Part shown: positions 30,245 to 35,741 of the stretch, piece after piece
Layout of the letters: the number at the start of each line of letters is the position of its first letter
Numbering within the stretch: position 1 is the first letter of the stretch
Source: Nostocoides sp. Soil756
Lineage (GTDB): Bacteria; Actinomycetota; Actinomycetes; Actinomycetales; Dermatophilaceae
Reading direction: 5' to 3'
DNA: 64,000 nucleotides
Assembly: GCF_001428065.1 (NCBI RefSeq)
Contig: NZ_LMSE01000004.1
Span: 563,016 to 627,015 of the forward strand
Position numbers and translations under genes: made by a program
The notes under the pieces: model-generated
The model's database searches: none
What the model was told of the DNA's origin: nothing
What the model saw: the letters and a program-made list of their open reading frames with translations, nothing else

Positions 30245-32023
30245 ATGGCGCGCGACTTCACCACGGTGGGTGTGATCGGACTCGGGACGATGGGGGCGGG
30301 GATCGTCGAGGTGTTCGCCCGCAACGGGCTCGACGTCTTCGCGGTCGACGCCGACGACGCCGGGCTGGCCCACGGCCGCGAGATCCTGGCCGGCAGCACC
30401 GGGCGCGCGCTGGCCCGCGGGAAGATGACGCAGGAGGCGCACGACGCCCTGCACCAGCGGGTCACCTTCACCACCGCGCTCGAGGACCTCGCCGGCTGCC
30501 AGCTGGTGGTCGAGGCGGTGCCCGAGCAGCTGGCGCTGAAGAAGGACGTCCTGGGCCGGCTCGACCGCATCGTCGCGGCCGACGCGGTGCTCGCGACCAA
30601 CACCTCGTCGCTGCCGGTCACCGAGATCGCCGTCGCGACCAGCAACCCCAAGCGCGTCGTGGGGATGCACTTCTTCAACCCCGCCCCGGTCCAGCAGTTC
30701 GTCGAGGTCATCCGCACCGTCATCACCGCCGACGACGTCTTCGAGGACGTCAAGGCCCTTGCCGAGCGGCTCGGCAAGAAGCCCGTGGTCGTCGGCGACA
30801 AGGCCGGCTTCATCGCCAACGCGCTGCTCTTCGGCTACCTCAACCACGCGGTCGCGATGTACGAGAGCCGGTACGCCACCCGTGAGGACCTCGACGCGGC
30901 CATGCGCTTCGGCTGCGGCTACCCGATGGGCCCCCTGCAGCTGCTCGACCTCATCGGCCTCGACACCGCCTACGAGATCCTCGACACGATGTACAAGCAG
31001 GGGCGCGACCGCCTGCACGCGCCGACCCCCCTCATCAAGCAGATGGTCAGCGCGGGGATGCTGGGCCGCAAGTCCGGGCGGGGCTTCTACACCTACGCCG
31101 CTGCGGGCTCGCCCGAGGTGGTCCCCGACCGGCAGACGCCGTCCGGCGGGGTGCCCGACGGGGTGGCGCTGCGCGAGGTCACCCGGGTCGGCGTGGTCGG
31201 CAGCGGCGTGATGGCCGTCGGGATCGTCGAGGTGCTGGCCCGGGCGGGTCTGGCGGTGACCTACGTGGCGCGCTCCGACGAGAAGGTCGAGGCGGTGCGG
31301 GCGTCGCTGGTGGCCGGCCTCGCGCGCTCGGTCGAGAAGGGCCGGCTGGAGCAGGCCGAGGCCGACGCCACCCTGGCGCGGGTCACCGGGTCGAGCGAGC
31401 GCAAGGCCCTGGCCGGCGCCGACCTCGTCATCGAGGCGGTCGCCGAGGACCTGGCGGTCAAGCAGGACCTGTTCCGCGACCTCGACCGCATCTGCCGGCC
31501 GGGGGCGATCCTCGCGACCACCACGTCGTCGCTGCCGGTCATCGACTGCGCCAAGGTGACCTCGCGCCCGCAGGACGTCGTCGGGATGCACTTCTTCAAC
31601 CCGGCGCCGGTCATGAAGCTGGTCGAGGTCGTGCACACCGTGAGCACCGCCCCTGACGTCTTGGCCACGGTCCAGCAGCTGTGTGCCACCGTGGGCAAGG
31701 TGGCCGTCACGTGCGGCGACCGCGCGGGGTTCGTCGTCAACGCCCTGCTCTTCCCCTACCTCAACGACGCCGTGAAGATGCTCGAGGCCAACTACGCCAG
31801 CGCCGACGACATCGACACCGCGATGAAGACCGGCTGCGGGCTGCCGATGGGGCCCTTCGAGCTGCTCGACGTGGTCGGGCTCGACGTGTCGCTGGCCATC
31901 GAGCGCGAGCTCTACCTCGAGTTCCGTGAGCGCGGCTACGCCCCGGCGCCCCTGCTGGAGCACCTCGTGACCGCGGGCTACCTCGGGCGCAAGAGCGGGC
32001 GCGGCTTCCGCACCTACGCCTGA
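30245..32023 (+). CDS. 3-Hydroxyacyl-CoA dehydrogenase, tandem-fused
   Basis: 592 aa made of two complete copies of a 3-hydroxybutyryl-CoA dehydrogenase (about 1-293 and 316-592), each with Rossmann and C-terminal helical domains. Copy 1 has the intact NAD loop GLGTMGAGI. Copy 2 has GSGVMAVGI, with Gly replaced by Ala in the loop, so it may bind the cofactor less well. Both carry the catalytic segments ATNTSSLPV or ATTTSSLPV and GMHFFNPAPV with the active His, and both end with LGRKSGRGF-TYA. It probably interconverts acetoacetyl-CoA and 3-hydroxybutyryl-CoA for the ethylmalonyl-CoA route, or serves beta-oxidation. No enoyl-CoA hydratase domain is fused. Confidence 0.9.
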   Translation: MARDFTTVGVIGLGTMGAGIVEVFARNGLDVFAVDADDAGLAHGREILAGSTGRALARGKMTQEAHDALHQRVTFTTALEDLAGCQLVVEAVPEQLALKKDVLGRLDRIVAADAVLATNTSSLPVTEIAVATSNPKRVVGMHFFNPAPVQQFVEVIRTVITADDVFEDVKALAERLGKKPVVVGDKAGFIANALLFGYLNHAVAMYESRYATREDLDAAMRFGCGYPMGPLQLLDLIGLDTAYEILDTMYKQGRDRLHAPTPLIKQMVSAGMLGRKSGRGFYTYAAAGSPEVVPDRQTPSGGVPDGVALREVTRVGVVGSGVMAVGIVEVLARAGLAVTYVARSDEKVEAVRASLVAGLARSVEKGRLEQAEADATLARVTGSSERKALAGADLVIEAVAEDLAVKQDLFRDLDRICRPGAILATTTSSLPVIDCAKVTSRPQDVVGMHFFNPAPVMKLVEVVHTVSTAPDVLATVQQLCATVGKVAVTCGDRAGFVVNALLFPYLNDAVKMLEANYASADDIDTAMKTGCGLPMGPFELLDVVGLDVSLAIERELYLEFRERGYAPAPLLEHLVTAGYLGRKSGRGFRTYA

Positions 32024-32059: not shown

Positions 32060-32122
32060 GTCGAGAGGAGGGGACACGCCGGGTTCCAGGGCGCTCCGGT
32101 GTGCGTGTTGCCTCCTCTCGAG
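32060..32122. repeat. Palindromic element, copy A
   Basis: The left arm GTCGAGAGGAGG...ACACGC (32060-32079) and right arm (32103-32122) are 20 nt each and pair at 17 positions around a 23-nt centre. The sequence is nearly the same as copy B at 33146-33207. The two copies sit on either side of the AbiEi/DUF559-like gene. It also lies between convergent genes and could serve as a terminator. Confidence 0.85.
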
Positions 32123-32143
32123 CGCGGCATCCGGCCGGGGCCC

Positions 32144-33079
32144 TCAGTGGATGCGCAGCCGCGCCGGGTCGAGCTCGAGGGCGCGGGCGAACCGGCGCAG
32201 GGTGGCGACCCGGCGGGCCCCGGGAACGAGGTCCTGCGCGAACAGCTCCAGGACGGTCCAGCCCTCGTCGCCCAGGAGCCCGTTGCGGTAGGAGTCCTCG
32301 CTACGGCGCCGGATCCCGGCGTGTACGGCTCCCTGGTACTCGCCGACGACGCGCTGGGCGCGCCACACCAGGTCGCCCTCCGCGAGCCAGCCACCCCCGG
32401 CGGCGTGGAGGGGAGCGTTCACCTCGGGCTCGGGGAAGCCGGCGTCGTGGAACATCAGGCGGGCCCGGGTTTCGGCGGGGGAGCGGACCCCGCGTCGCAC
32501 CAGGGTCAGGGCGTCGCCGAGCAGGGACGCGTGCCGGGGCCTGACCCGCGCGGCCAGCGCATCCGCCAGCGCGCGTGGGGGACCGCCGGAGGCCTGCGGG
32601 TCGCTCAGCCGGGTGGCCACGACGTCGCCGACGACGACGAGGTCGTCACGCCCGAGCCCGCGGCGCACGACCTCCCCGAGGTCGACCCAGGTGTCGGCGA
32701 GCGCGGTGACCCGTAGCCCCTGGACGCTCGCCACGACCCGGTGCTCGAGGCCGCGGTGGCTGATGCAGCCACGGCGCTCGATGCGGCCACGACCGGTGTC
32801 GCGGATGACGTCGAGGTCGCCCTGCTCCTCGAGGTGCGCCGGCAGCGGGAGGCCCCAGAGCCGAGCGGCCGTGACGTGCGAGAACGCGACGTCGGGCGGG
32901 AGCGCGAGGGCGAAGGCCGCGGCCCGCTCGGGTAGCTCGGTCAGCGGCGCCGTGCTGCGCACCGAGCGGGTCGTCCGCAGCAGCTGCGGCATCCGCCACT
33001 GGTGGTCGGCCAGCCCCAGGTCACGGGCGGCGTCGAGCGACAGCGGCCCGGGGGGCAGCGGAGGCAGGACCGGCGGCAT
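32144..33079 (-). CDS. AbiEi/DUF559-like protein with a VSR-type nuclease-like end
   Basis: 311 aa. The N-terminus (about 1-110) resembles the AbiEi antitoxin winged-helix region (LSLDAARDLGLADHQWRMPQLLRT, then AFSHVTAARLWGLPLP). The C-terminus (about 220-311) looks like the DUF559/very-short-patch-repair endonuclease fold, with GGWLAEGDLVWRAQRVVGEYQG, RRRSEDSYRNGLLGDEGWTVLELFAQDL. Such genes are abundant and variable in actinobacteria and their role is not known. No AbiEii-type nucleotidyltransferase toxin is next to it, so a toxin-antitoxin role is doubtful. It is alone on the minus strand, bracketed by copies A and B of one palindrome. Confidence 0.75.
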   Translation of the reverse strand: MPPVLPPLPPGPLSLDAARDLGLADHQWRMPQLLRTTRSVRSTAPLTELPERAAAFALALPPDVAFSHVTAARLWGLPLPAHLEEQGDLDVIRDTGRGRIERRGCISHRGLEHRVVASVQGLRVTALADTWVDLGEVVRRGLGRDDLVVVGDVVATRLSDPQASGGPPRALADALAARVRPRHASLLGDALTLVRRGVRSPAETRARLMFHDAGFPEPEVNAPLHAAGGGWLAEGDLVWRAQRVVGEYQGAVHAGIRRRSEDSYRNGLLGDEGWTVLELFAQDLVPGARRVATLRRFARALELDPARLRIH

Positions 33080-33145
33080 CCCCCGATCGTGGACGTTCCC
33101 CGCTCGGCGCCCGCGAGGTTCTCCACAGGGGGGGCTCCCGCCGCG

Positions 33146-33207
33146 GTCGAGAGGAGGTGACACGCCGAGCGGGCGGTGCGTGCGCCTGCGTGTCGCCTCC
33201 TCTCGAC
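33146..33207. repeat. Palindromic element, copy B
   Basis: The left arm GTCGAGAGGAGG...ACACGC (33146-33165) and right arm (33188-33207) pair at 19 of 20 positions around a 22-nt centre. Only the position after AGGAGG breaks the pairing. It lies 67 nt upstream of the minus-strand AbiEi/DUF559-like gene and 66 nt upstream of the flavoprotein gene. Confidence 0.88.
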
Positions 33208-33272: not shown

Positions 33273-35741
33273 ATGAGCACCCGCGCCGCCCTGCCCTCGC
33301 GCGCCCGCGTCGTCGTCATCGGCGGCGGGGTCATCGGCACCTCGATCGCCTACCACCTGGCGCACGCGGGCGAGACCGACGTCGTGCTGCTCGAGCGCGA
33401 CCGGCTCACGTCGGGGACCACCTGGCACGCGGCCGGCCTGATGACCTGCTTCGGCTCGTTCAGCGAGACCAGCACCCGGCTGCGCCTGTACTCGCGCGAC
33501 CTCTACGGCCGGCTCGAGGGGGAGACCGGGCAGGCCACCGGCTTCCGCCCGGTGGGCCTGGTCGAGGCAGCGGCTGACGCGGACCGGCTCGAGGAGTACC
33601 GGCGGGTCGCGACGTTCCAGCGGCGTCTGGGGCTCGAGGTCGACGAGGTGTCGCCGGCCGAGATGGCCGCGCTGTTCCCGCTGGCGCGCACCGACGACCT
33701 CGTCGGCGGCTTCCACGTGCCCGGCGACGGGCGGGTGAACCCGGTCGACCTCACGATGTCGCTGGCCAAGGGGGCCCGCGCGCTCGGGGTGCGGGTCGTC
33801 GAGGGCGTGCGCGTCGAGGGGGTCCGGACCCGCCCGCGCGGGCTGGTCGAGCAGGTCACCGGCGTCGACACCGACCGCGGCGCCATCGAGTGCGAGGTCG
33901 TGGTCAACGCGGCCGGGATGTGGGCCCGCGAGCTGGCCGGGCGCAACGGCGTCGTCGTGCCGAACCAGGCGGCCGAGCACTACTACCTCGTCACCGAGCC
34001 CATCGACGGCATGAGCCCCGACGCCCCGGTCTTCGAGGACCCGGCCGCCTACGGCTACTACCGCGAGGAGGGCGGCGGGATGATGGTCGGGCTGTTCGAG
34101 CCCGAGGCCGCGGCCTGGCAGGTCGACGGCATCCCACCGGACTTCAGCTTCGGGACCATCGCGCCCGACACCGACCGCGTCGGCCCGTTCCTCGAGAAGG
34201 CCATGGCCCGCATCCCGGCGCTCGACGGGGTCGGCATCCGCACCTTCTTCTGCGGCCCCGAGTCCTTCACCCCCGACCTGGCCCCGGCCGTCGGGGAGGC
34301 GCCGGGGGTGCACGGGTACTTCGTCTGCGCCGGGCTGAACTCGGTGGGCATCCTCTCGGCCGGCGGCCTGGGGCGGATCGTGGCGCACTGGGTGGTCTCG
34401 GGGCGCCCCGACGTCGACGTGACCGGCATCGACGTCGCCCGCTTCCGCGACTGGCAGCTGCGCCCCGAGCACCGCCACGACCGCACCGCCGAGGTCCTGG
34501 GCACCGTCTACGCGGCGCACACCCCCGGCGTGCAGCTGACCACCTCCCGCGGGGTGCTGCGCTCGCCGGTGCATGAGGCCACCGTGGCCGCCGGCGGCTA
34601 CCTGCGCGACGTCTCGGGCTGGGACTCGCCCGCCTGGTACGCCGGCGCGGGGCAGCGGCCGAGCGCCGAGCCGACGTGGGGCCGGGCGCCCTGGGCGGCG
34701 CACTGGGAGGCCGAGCACCGGGCGGTGCGCGAGGCGGCCGGCCTGTTCGACCTGTCGTTCATGACCAAGCTGGCCGTCCGCGGCCCCGACGCCCTGGCCG
34801 TGCTCGACCGGCTCTCGGCCGGCGACCTCGGCCGCGACGGGCGGATCACCTACACCCCGTGGCTCGGGCCCGCCGGCGGCGTCGACGCCGACCTCACCGT
34901 GACCCGGCTGGCGGCCGACGACCTGCTGGTCGTCGCGTCCGACACGGCCTACGGCCGGGTCGTCGGGATGCTGCGCCGCGGGGTGGGCGACGCGCGGGCG
35001 ACCGTCACCGACGTCACCGAGGAGCTGGCGCTGCTGAGCCTCCAGGGCCCGGCGTCGCGCGCGGTGCTGCGGGCCGTCGCACCGGACACCGACTGGTCGG
35101 GGGACGCCTTCGCCTTCCGCGACGCCCGGCGGGTGCGGCTGGCCGGCGTCGAGGCGCTGGCCGTGCGCATCACCTACGTCGGCGAGCTCGGCTGGGAGCT
35201 GTACGTGCCGGCCGGCCACGCGACCGCCGTCTGGGACGCCCTCCTGGCCGCCGGCGCCGAGCACGGGCTGCGGCCCGCCGGCCTCGCGGCGCTCGGCAGC
35301 CTGCGCCTCGAGAAGGGCTACCGCGACCACGGTCACGACCTCGACAACACCGACGACGTGCGCTCGGCCGGCCTCGGCTTCGCCGTCGCGCCCGACAAGC
35401 CGGGCGGCTTCGTCGGGCGGGAGGCCACCCTCGCGGCTCGTGAGCAGGGCGCCCCGGCCCACCGCATCGTCTCGGTCGTGGTCGGCGACCCGGAGCCGCT
35501 GCTGTGGCACGGCGAGGTGCTGCTGCGCGACGGCGTGCCGGTCGGTGACGTGCGCAGCGGCTCCTACGGCTGGACCGTCGGTGCGGCGGTGGGCCTGGCC
35601 GGGGTCGAGCACCCCGAGGGGGTCACGGCGGCGTGGCTGGCCGAGGGCCGGTGGGAGGTCGACGTCGCGGGGCGTCGGTACCCTGCCGCGGTGTCGCTGC
35701 GGCCGCCCTACGACCCCACCTCGGCCAGGGTCCGCGGCTGA
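33273..35741 (+). CDS. FAD-dependent dimethylglycine/sarcosine dehydrogenase-like protein with GcvT domain
   Basis: 822 aa. The N-terminal DAO-type FAD domain (about 12-375) has the dinucleotide motif VVVIGGGVIGTSIAYHLA and SGTTWHAAGL. H52 occupies the position of covalent FAD attachment in dimethylglycine oxidase-type enzymes. A linker FAO_M-like domain (about 375-435) is followed by an aminomethyltransferase (GcvT) domain and its C-terminal barrel (about 440-815), which pass the released methylene group to tetrahydrofolate. The substrate may be dimethylglycine, sarcosine or another N-methyl amine. The monocistronic, leaderless-looking gene has no glycine-betaine catabolic neighbours here. 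GlyA is 18 kb away. Confidence 0.87.
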   Translation: MSTRAALPSRARVVVIGGGVIGTSIAYHLAHAGETDVVLLERDRLTSGTTWHAAGLMTCFGSFSETSTRLRLYSRDLYGRLEGETGQATGFRPVGLVEAAADADRLEEYRRVATFQRRLGLEVDEVSPAEMAALFPLARTDDLVGGFHVPGDGRVNPVDLTMSLAKGARALGVRVVEGVRVEGVRTRPRGLVEQVTGVDTDRGAIECEVVVNAAGMWARELAGRNGVVVPNQAAEHYYLVTEPIDGMSPDAPVFEDPAAYGYYREEGGGMMVGLFEPEAAAWQVDGIPPDFSFGTIAPDTDRVGPFLEKAMARIPALDGVGIRTFFCGPESFTPDLAPAVGEAPGVHGYFVCAGLNSVGILSAGGLGRIVAHWVVSGRPDVDVTGIDVARFRDWQLRPEHRHDRTAEVLGTVYAAHTPGVQLTTSRGVLRSPVHEATVAAGGYLRDVSGWDSPAWYAGAGQRPSAEPTWGRAPWAAHWEAEHRAVREAAGLFDLSFMTKLAVRGPDALAVLDRLSAGDLGRDGRITYTPWLGPAGGVDADLTVTRLAADDLLVVASDTAYGRVVGMLRRGVGDARATVTDVTEELALLSLQGPASRAVLRAVAPDTDWSGDAFAFRDARRVRLAGVEALAVRITYVGELGWELYVPAGHATAVWDALLAAGAEHGLRPAGLAALGSLRLEKGYRDHGHDLDNTDDVRSAGLGFAVAPDKPGGFVGREATLAAREQGAPAHRIVSVVVGDPEPLLWHGEVLLRDGVPVGDVRSGSYGWTVGAAVGLAGVEHPEGVTAAWLAEGRWEVDVAGRRYPAAVSLRPPYDPTSARVRG

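Follow-up and report, generated by a model that had tools for sequence, protein, structure and literature searches.

A lone nuclease-like gene with a palindrome on each side was identified in the window (the whole stretch of DNA analysed, 64,000 nucleotides at G000:C4:563016-627015, G000 being the genome which holds it). With moderate confidence, we favour the explanation that it belongs to a large family of palindrome-nuclease units, each composed of a gene with its own palindrome of about 62 bp at both ends and accompanied by dispersed solo copies, for which binding, cutting and copying are proposed. The support for this mechanism is moderate, and binding, cutting and transposition are all inferred. 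What soil and water actinobacteria seem to carry is an undescribed, possibly self-spreading repeat-plus-enzyme system, in which the REP/RAYT arrangement was reinvented with an unrelated enzyme. In the open-access literature, searches that combined DUF559 or AbiEi with palindromes, repeats or mobility gave no earlier description of it; subscription papers and preprints were for the most part outside the scope of this search.

The palindromes and genes of the window locus

Two palindromes, neither assigned to a strand, were identified from the sequence and with a repeat finder. Palindrome 1 (32060..32122, 63 bp, R1 56 bits) was composed of two 20-nt arms (32060-32079 and 32103-32122) and a 23-nt loop (32080-32102), and was located between convergent genes, 21 nt downstream of the stop of the nuclease gene. 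Palindrome 2 (33146..33207, 62 bp) was the top-scoring copy genome-wide in G000 with R1 78.8 bits; its 20-nt arms (33146-33165 and 33188-33207) enclosed a 22-nt loop (33166-33187), and it was located between divergent gene starts, 66 nt upstream of the nuclease gene start. Three of the four arms started with GTCGAGAGGAGG, the right arm of palindrome 1 started with CTCGAG and carried a G14 to A change, and all four ended with ACACGC. When the palindrome detector was run on 218,794 control bases of shuffled and reversed sequence, no match was obtained.

Between the two palindromes a single ORF of 311 codons was present on the minus strand (33079-32144). It was read as a gene for a 311-aa AbiEi-like/DUF559-like nuclease (32144..33079, minus strand), the presumed partner of the palindromes, based on the ORF, codon usage, Pfam DUF559 in homologs, an AlphaFold model and Foldseek. 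A 592-aa FadB-like gene (30245-32023) was located on one side and an 822-aa FAD-oxidoreductase-like gene (33273-35741) on the other, both of plus orientation, with identities read from the sequence without family searches. The product of the former seemed to be two FadB-like 3-hydroxyacyl-CoA dehydrogenase halves in tandem, about 51% identical to one another.

A preliminary description, made from sequence alone, had claimed two elements of 63 and 62 bp with 20-nt arms around a lone minus-strand gene whose neighbours run the opposite way, and this held by sequence, repeat finder and ORFs. Its claim of a shared arm start and an ACACGC end held in all four arms for the end and in three for the start.

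The AbiEi-like/DUF559-like protein

In our reading, the protein joins an AbiEi-like DNA-binding part to a DUF559/Vsr-like nuclease; both DNA binding and nuclease activity are inferred. Three parts were distinguished on the minus strand, all with approximate boundaries. The N-terminal part (residues ~1-45, 32945..33079) was inferred to be an AbiEi-type winged-helix DNA-binding domain from the secondary structure of the model and from the closest PDB match, Rv2827c. The middle AbiEi-like domain (residues ~46-195, 32495..32944), delimited by homolog alignments, contained the conserved residues S67 H68, R102, H108 R109, R114 and W131 D133. The C-terminal Vsr/DUF559/EDxHD-like nuclease domain (residues ~198-311, 32147..32488) was assigned by conserved residues and a profile match. 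Among 52 aligned homologs, E203 (codon 32471-32473), D236 (32372-32374), H253 (32321-32323) and D262 (32294-32296) were invariant, and E247 (32339-32341) was kept in at least 90%. The invariant residues could correspond to the E-D-x-H-D pattern of the EDxHD homing family, which is listed in PMC6083498, although the residue equivalence is inferred.

The mean pLDDT of the AlphaFold model of the 311-aa protein was 94.7. The best solved match in Foldseek was Rv2827c (E 9e-4, probability 1.00), yet with a TM of only ~0.4 over two domains; the second, weak match was the catalytic domain of I-Bth0305I (E 0.3, TM(target) 0.51). A profile search matched residues 230-299 to the endonuclease-like protein 3hrl and to PvuRts1I. 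For Pfam DUF559 the window protein obtained 13 bits, under the gathering score of 20.6, and one homolog was over it with 23.9 bits. The resemblance of the C-terminus to the VSR/DUF559 nuclease fold, as suggested in the preliminary description, was upheld by the profile match and the invariant residues, with the window protein itself below the Pfam gathering score.

Rv2827c is an AbiEi antitoxin of Mycobacterium tuberculosis. Both AbiEi and Rv2827c bind paired 23-bp inverted repeats upstream of their own genes, with gaps of 3 and 13 bp (PMC7319586). The window arms were of the size of these repeats with a wider gap, giving a hint that each arm might be the half-site of one subunit, a possibility without binding data.

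Association of the gene with matched palindromes

The bracketing of the gene by matched palindromes extended well beyond the window. Thirty homolog loci were fetched from the family by protein similarity to the window gene, blind to palindromes (the homolog loci include MAG duplicates, such as L162 and L163). With a covariance model and a sequence-agnostic palindrome finder, palindromes were found on both sides of the gene in at least 23 of the 30, and the remaining seven had one side only (contig end or missing) or weaker pairs. A matched pair was still present where the covariance model failed on different arms, for example at L156, L160, L161, L164, L165, L167 and L168. Distant homologs (39-47% identity) often had quite different palindromes, yet these were matched at both ends, and even an Oerskovia homolog of ~31% identity had them at both ends.

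In an independent named set, strictly matched pairs were found at 31/68 loci, versus 1/509 random windows. A gene-based control was added beside the random windows, and none of its 151 neighbouring genes had a matched pair, versus 22/31 close, 4/17 middle and 4/11 distant homologs. The spacing was regular as well, with one palindrome preceding the start by ~55 nt in almost every unit and the other ~0-30 nt past the stop, sometimes overlapping it.

At L207 (G131) two identical 68-bp palindromes (1721-1788 and 2788-2855) with a GAATTCTG loop and unrelated arms were located around a 40%-identical homolog, and this unit was possibly active recently.

The palindrome family across genomes

In G000, 12 palindromes with the window arm type were found genome-wide, all with paired arms 42-43 bp apart from centre to centre and all intergenic except one; three further weak arm matches were unpaired under the same pattern. 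Loops shared no sequence and had a constant length of 22 or 23. A covariance model was built from 34 palindrome copies and matched 12/12 genomes of the genus, as well as 49/188 genomes and 18/53 genera of the family. It was trained on one code, so that for other genera it gives only minimum counts and undersamples the spread across taxa. An exact-pattern scan of GTDB contigs gave no arm match; such a scan may omit near records, and arm codes differ by species. Two Oerskovia genomes had about 17 copies each of the palindrome of their own unit.

The arms followed one plan across the family, with an outer GTCGAG, an inner ACACGC and an 8-nt "code" between them; they started with (G)TCGAG, and the preceding base was variable. 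The code was AGGAGGYG in the window arms, and TGAACAGG, GTCGGGCA, TTCGGGAA and AGGGAGCA were observed elsewhere in the family. It varied by species, with a complementary change in the opposite arm, and pair counts revealed covariation above shuffled and slid controls. Stem covariation of this kind is, however, equally to be expected of two inverted protein sites kept alike. In Phycicoccus-type palindromes a transition between the two arms of a copy was common at arm positions 13 and 14, which gives a G-T (G-U) wobble in the hairpin of one strand. Vsr cuts at T:G mismatches, and given the Vsr-like fold the wobble may perhaps be more than chance.

Solo copies amounted to about 10-25 per genome. 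In G000 they were located in convergent, divergent and tandem gaps alike, with one within an ORF. Because all gap types were occupied alike and one copy was in an ORF, neither terminator nor promoter placement explains them. When 10 orthologous palindromes of G000 and G006 were compared, arms, loops and flanks diverged by 5.5%, 20.8% and 23.4% (Fisher tests, p = 1.4e-8 for arms vs loops and p = 1.8e-16 for arms vs flanks). The arms are the retained part, changing about four times more slowly than loops or flanks, and this selective conservation of solo arms suggests that they may have a host function and are not mere debris.

The copy within an ORF (L044:5053-5114, G000:C2:1369052; L081 in G006) was in frame in a linker-like stretch of a 1366-aa ORF, which resembles a gene for DNA polymerase III alpha (DnaE-type), and its arms and loop were identical between G000 and G006. 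In addition, a palindrome of a third code was found within near-identical segments of 140-245 bp, with the same loop, in non-orthologous places (L174, G000:C5:126957; L180, G006:C1:1241688; L341, G006:C1:3317081). This suggests that here more than the palindrome alone was copied as a unit.

Arm codes and their proteins

Median arm similarity was 0.95 within a unit versus 0.69 between units, and it rose with protein identity (Mantel test on 32 units, Spearman rho 0.54, permutation p = 0.0002, without phylogeny correction). Part of this correlation could be expected from common descent. Yet paralogs of the same genome differed in code. In G000, paralog 1 had AGGAGGYG and paralog 2 (C7:186992-187879) had rGGCCAGr, and same-genome paralogs with different codes were observed in Pedococcus, Knoellia sinensis, Janibacter sp. 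HTCC2649 and Phycicoccus sonneratiae as well. The solo palindromes carried the codes of the resident genes. In G010, nine solo copies fit the code of one resident gene and 12 that of the other (some of the 12 being loose fits), and the well-fitting solo copies of G000 were mainly of code 1, with two close to code 2.

Mobility and age of the units

Both the gene unit and the solo sites were polymorphic for presence and absence. The window locus was empty in G004 and G007, where the neighbour genes were 136 and 37 bp apart with neither palindrome nor nuclease gene between them, and another gene was present at the locus in G003. It was occupied in six members of its genus and in three of another genus. 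As the occupied state spans two genera, the insertion at the window locus is old, and the unit there may have been largely vertically inherited. Four solo sites were checked: L040, L043 and L049 were each empty in at least two relatives, and at L045 no palindrome was found in relatives, without detailed alignment. The nuclease gene was broken in G010 and G011.

The junctions of the empty sites, with edges blurred by intergenic divergence, showed no target duplication, and solo copies had neither shared loops nor a clear target duplication. Since solo copies are few, without clear target duplication and with unshared loops, recent transposition is not visible. Between G000 and G006 (~91% identical DNA), every site whose G006 counterpart was examined was common to both, therefore movement must be slow. 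The system has probably moved in the past, if slowly; no transposition was observed. Plasmid or phage cargo was rejected, with a single weak match in the plasmid search (28.6%) and none in the phage search.

These results bear on what the preliminary description had suggested, namely a mobile or self-maintaining palindrome-nuclease unit. This part was supported by the bracketed homologs, the tracking of protein by code, the code-sharing solo copies and the empty sites; that the protein recognises the palindrome and mobilises it is still inferred. The arm search which it proposed in the genome and relatives gave 12 palindromes in G000 and model matches in all 12 genus genomes, and copies did cluster beside DUF559 genes, in that homologs at other loci and in other genera were bracketed by matched palindromes. 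Empty sites in close strains, its third check, were found for the gene unit (G004 and G007) and for solo sites. Of its two refuting outcomes, palindromes without any link to DUF559 genes were not seen, though most single copies adjoin unrelated genes; as for an ancient, never-mobile gene, the unit is old at the window locus (two genera), yet empty sites exist.

Proposed mechanism and rival explanations

In the proposed mechanism, a dimer of the protein would bind both 20-23-bp arms of one palindrome. In copies of the Phycicoccus type the arm centres are separated by 42 bp, or about four helical turns, and the loop is fixed in length and free in sequence. The nuclease would cut at the palindrome, and the cut palindrome would be transposed, or be repaired by copying from another palindrome or bracketed unit in the style of a homing endonuclease. 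Such copying would spread solo palindromes and sometimes the whole unit, and would keep the arms alike within a genome. AbiEi antitoxins autoregulate, and by analogy with them, the protein would probably also regulate its own gene by binding the palindrome that precedes the start by ~55 bp.

A bolder reading, to which we give slightly less than even credence, is that these units represent an undescribed class of selfish repeat systems which is widespread in Actinomycetota. The AbiEi-nuclease fusion would evolve together with its private palindrome as lock and key; this palindrome would be recognition site, unit end and landing site at the same time, and the spread would be homing-like, without a transposase of a known family.

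The main alternatives were weighed against the palindrome-nuclease unit. The protein could be merely an AbiEi-type autorepressor acting on inverted-repeat pairs, with solo copies as a regulon or as relics of lost genes and the nuclease fold incidental. The closest fold is that of Rv2827c, whose own promoter contains the paired 23-bp inverted repeats to which it binds (PMC7319586), and nearly all units have a palindrome ~55 bp before the start; but a matched copy is also present just past the stop codon, solo copies are located in convergent gaps and within a gene besides near promoters, and the nuclease residues are invariant, so this explanation is unlikely. Solo sites as operators of a regulon were rejected by themselves, for their placement had no promoter bias. 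Also unlikely is a resident chromosomal function, in which the nuclease and its dispersed palindromes would serve the host, in DNA maintenance or in recognising foreign DNA for instance, and selection would retain sites that move little or not at all. In its favour, the arms at orthologous sites are ~4x more conserved than loops or flanks, site positions are stable between G000 and G006, palindrome populations are stable in size in many species, and REPIN persistence models also require a host benefit (PMC8049555). Against it stand the empty sites and the patchy spread (49/188 family genomes, by a model biased to one code), the genes lost or broken in relatives, the many codes and the units at many loci.

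Much weaker is the case that another enzyme, such as a palindrome-inserting IS30-family element, mobilises the palindromes and the nuclease gene is a passenger. All five G006 copies of such an element were within palindrome loops, of three arm codes; however, the element was absent from G000 and most of the genus, it carries inverted repeats of its own and targets the loop without using the arms as ends, and it leaves the gene-specific codes unexplained, so we regard this rival as very improbable. A pair of transcription terminators, the simpler reading of the preliminary description, or chance can be practically ruled out. The hairpins are stable and palindrome 1 is located between convergent genes, but palindrome 2 and several other copies are in divergent gaps, the terminal T run is absent, there is no Rfam match of note, and locus-specific codes are repeated at both gene ends in many genera, versus 0/151 control genes. 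The terminator reading failed on the divergent placement, the solo copies in all gap types and the locus-specific arms.

Other candidates were rejected more simply. Structured RNA was excluded since no Rfam family was found at E<0.2 in the region and the orientation to genes was random, and a known defence system since a PADLOC search gave no match better than E 0.27. The arms were also considered as TIRs of an ordinary IS, and three G006 arm pairs ~1.3 kb apart turned out to be palindromes whose loop was interrupted by an IS30-family element.

The IS30-family insertions of G006 were located at L335, L337, L339, L340 and L341 (also L075-L077), and the palindrome hit by one of these insertions flanks the second DUF559 paralog. 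The element seems to recognise the structure of the palindrome.

Comparison with known systems

The AbiE type IV toxin-antitoxin systems share the AbiEi-like fold, and the genes of AbiEi proteins are preceded by paired 23-bp inverted repeats which these proteins bind (PMC7319586). The units differ from them by the extra C-terminal nuclease domain and by palindromes which are present at both ends and dispersed genome-wide. No AbiEii nucleotidyltransferase toxin partner was found in an operon at the window locus, where both neighbours are on the opposite strand; because the gene stands alone, it is not part of an AbiE toxin-antitoxin pair.

With the free-standing EDxHD/Vsr-fold homing endonucleases (I-Bth0305I) the protein shares conserved E, D, H and D residues of inferred equivalence, a weak fold match and, by inference, a plausible spread by cutting and repair. 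In contrast to the I-Bth0305I type, the units are outside introns, inteins and phage genomes (no phage match), carry their own palindrome pair and have an AbiEi-like DNA-binding part. MITEs and composite IS elements are alike in having inverted repeats and repeats flanking an enzyme gene, whereas in the units each end repeat is a complete palindrome, no target duplications were seen, the interiors of solo copies are unshared and there is no DDE transposase.

In organisation the units are like REPIN/RAYT systems; the likeness to REP elements and RAYT transposases which the preliminary description had drawn held for the organisation, with an unrelated enzyme. Both systems have dispersed, mostly intergenic hairpin repeats of two inverted parts (PMC3116915, PMC2817692, PMC1525189) and only one or a few dedicated nuclease genes in a genome, each located next to copies of its own repeat type (PMC3116915, PMC2817692), and in both, different repeat classes in one genome correspond to different enzyme genes. 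REP repeats are targeted by IS elements (PMC1525189), a feature shared with the palindromes here. The units are nevertheless not members of this group. The REPIN/RAYT enzyme is a Y1 HUH transposase, in contrast to the AbiEi/DUF559 nuclease; Y1_Tnp (Pfam PF01797) was found in none of six carrier genomes, with positive controls found, and RAYT-driven REPs were rejected on this ground. The GTAG/CGTC tag at the hairpin foot, constant in REPIN/RAYT, was absent from the palindromes. The units also differ by arms of 20-23 bp with a 22-nt loop, by 10-25 copies instead of hundreds, and by a gene with repeats on either side at short, fixed distances.

A set of "DUF559/AbiEi-like" genes, whose current annotation is hypothetical or antitoxin-like, gains a function-linked context from these results, and the dozens of naturally diverged protein-DNA pairs could serve as a source for reading the recognition code. 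The general view so far has been that one enzyme family, the RAYTs, explains REP-like repeats; here the same organisation occurs with an unrelated nuclease joined to a DNA-binding fold of toxin-antitoxin type, which offers a second, independent case for asking why bacteria retain repeat-plus-enzyme systems for so long.
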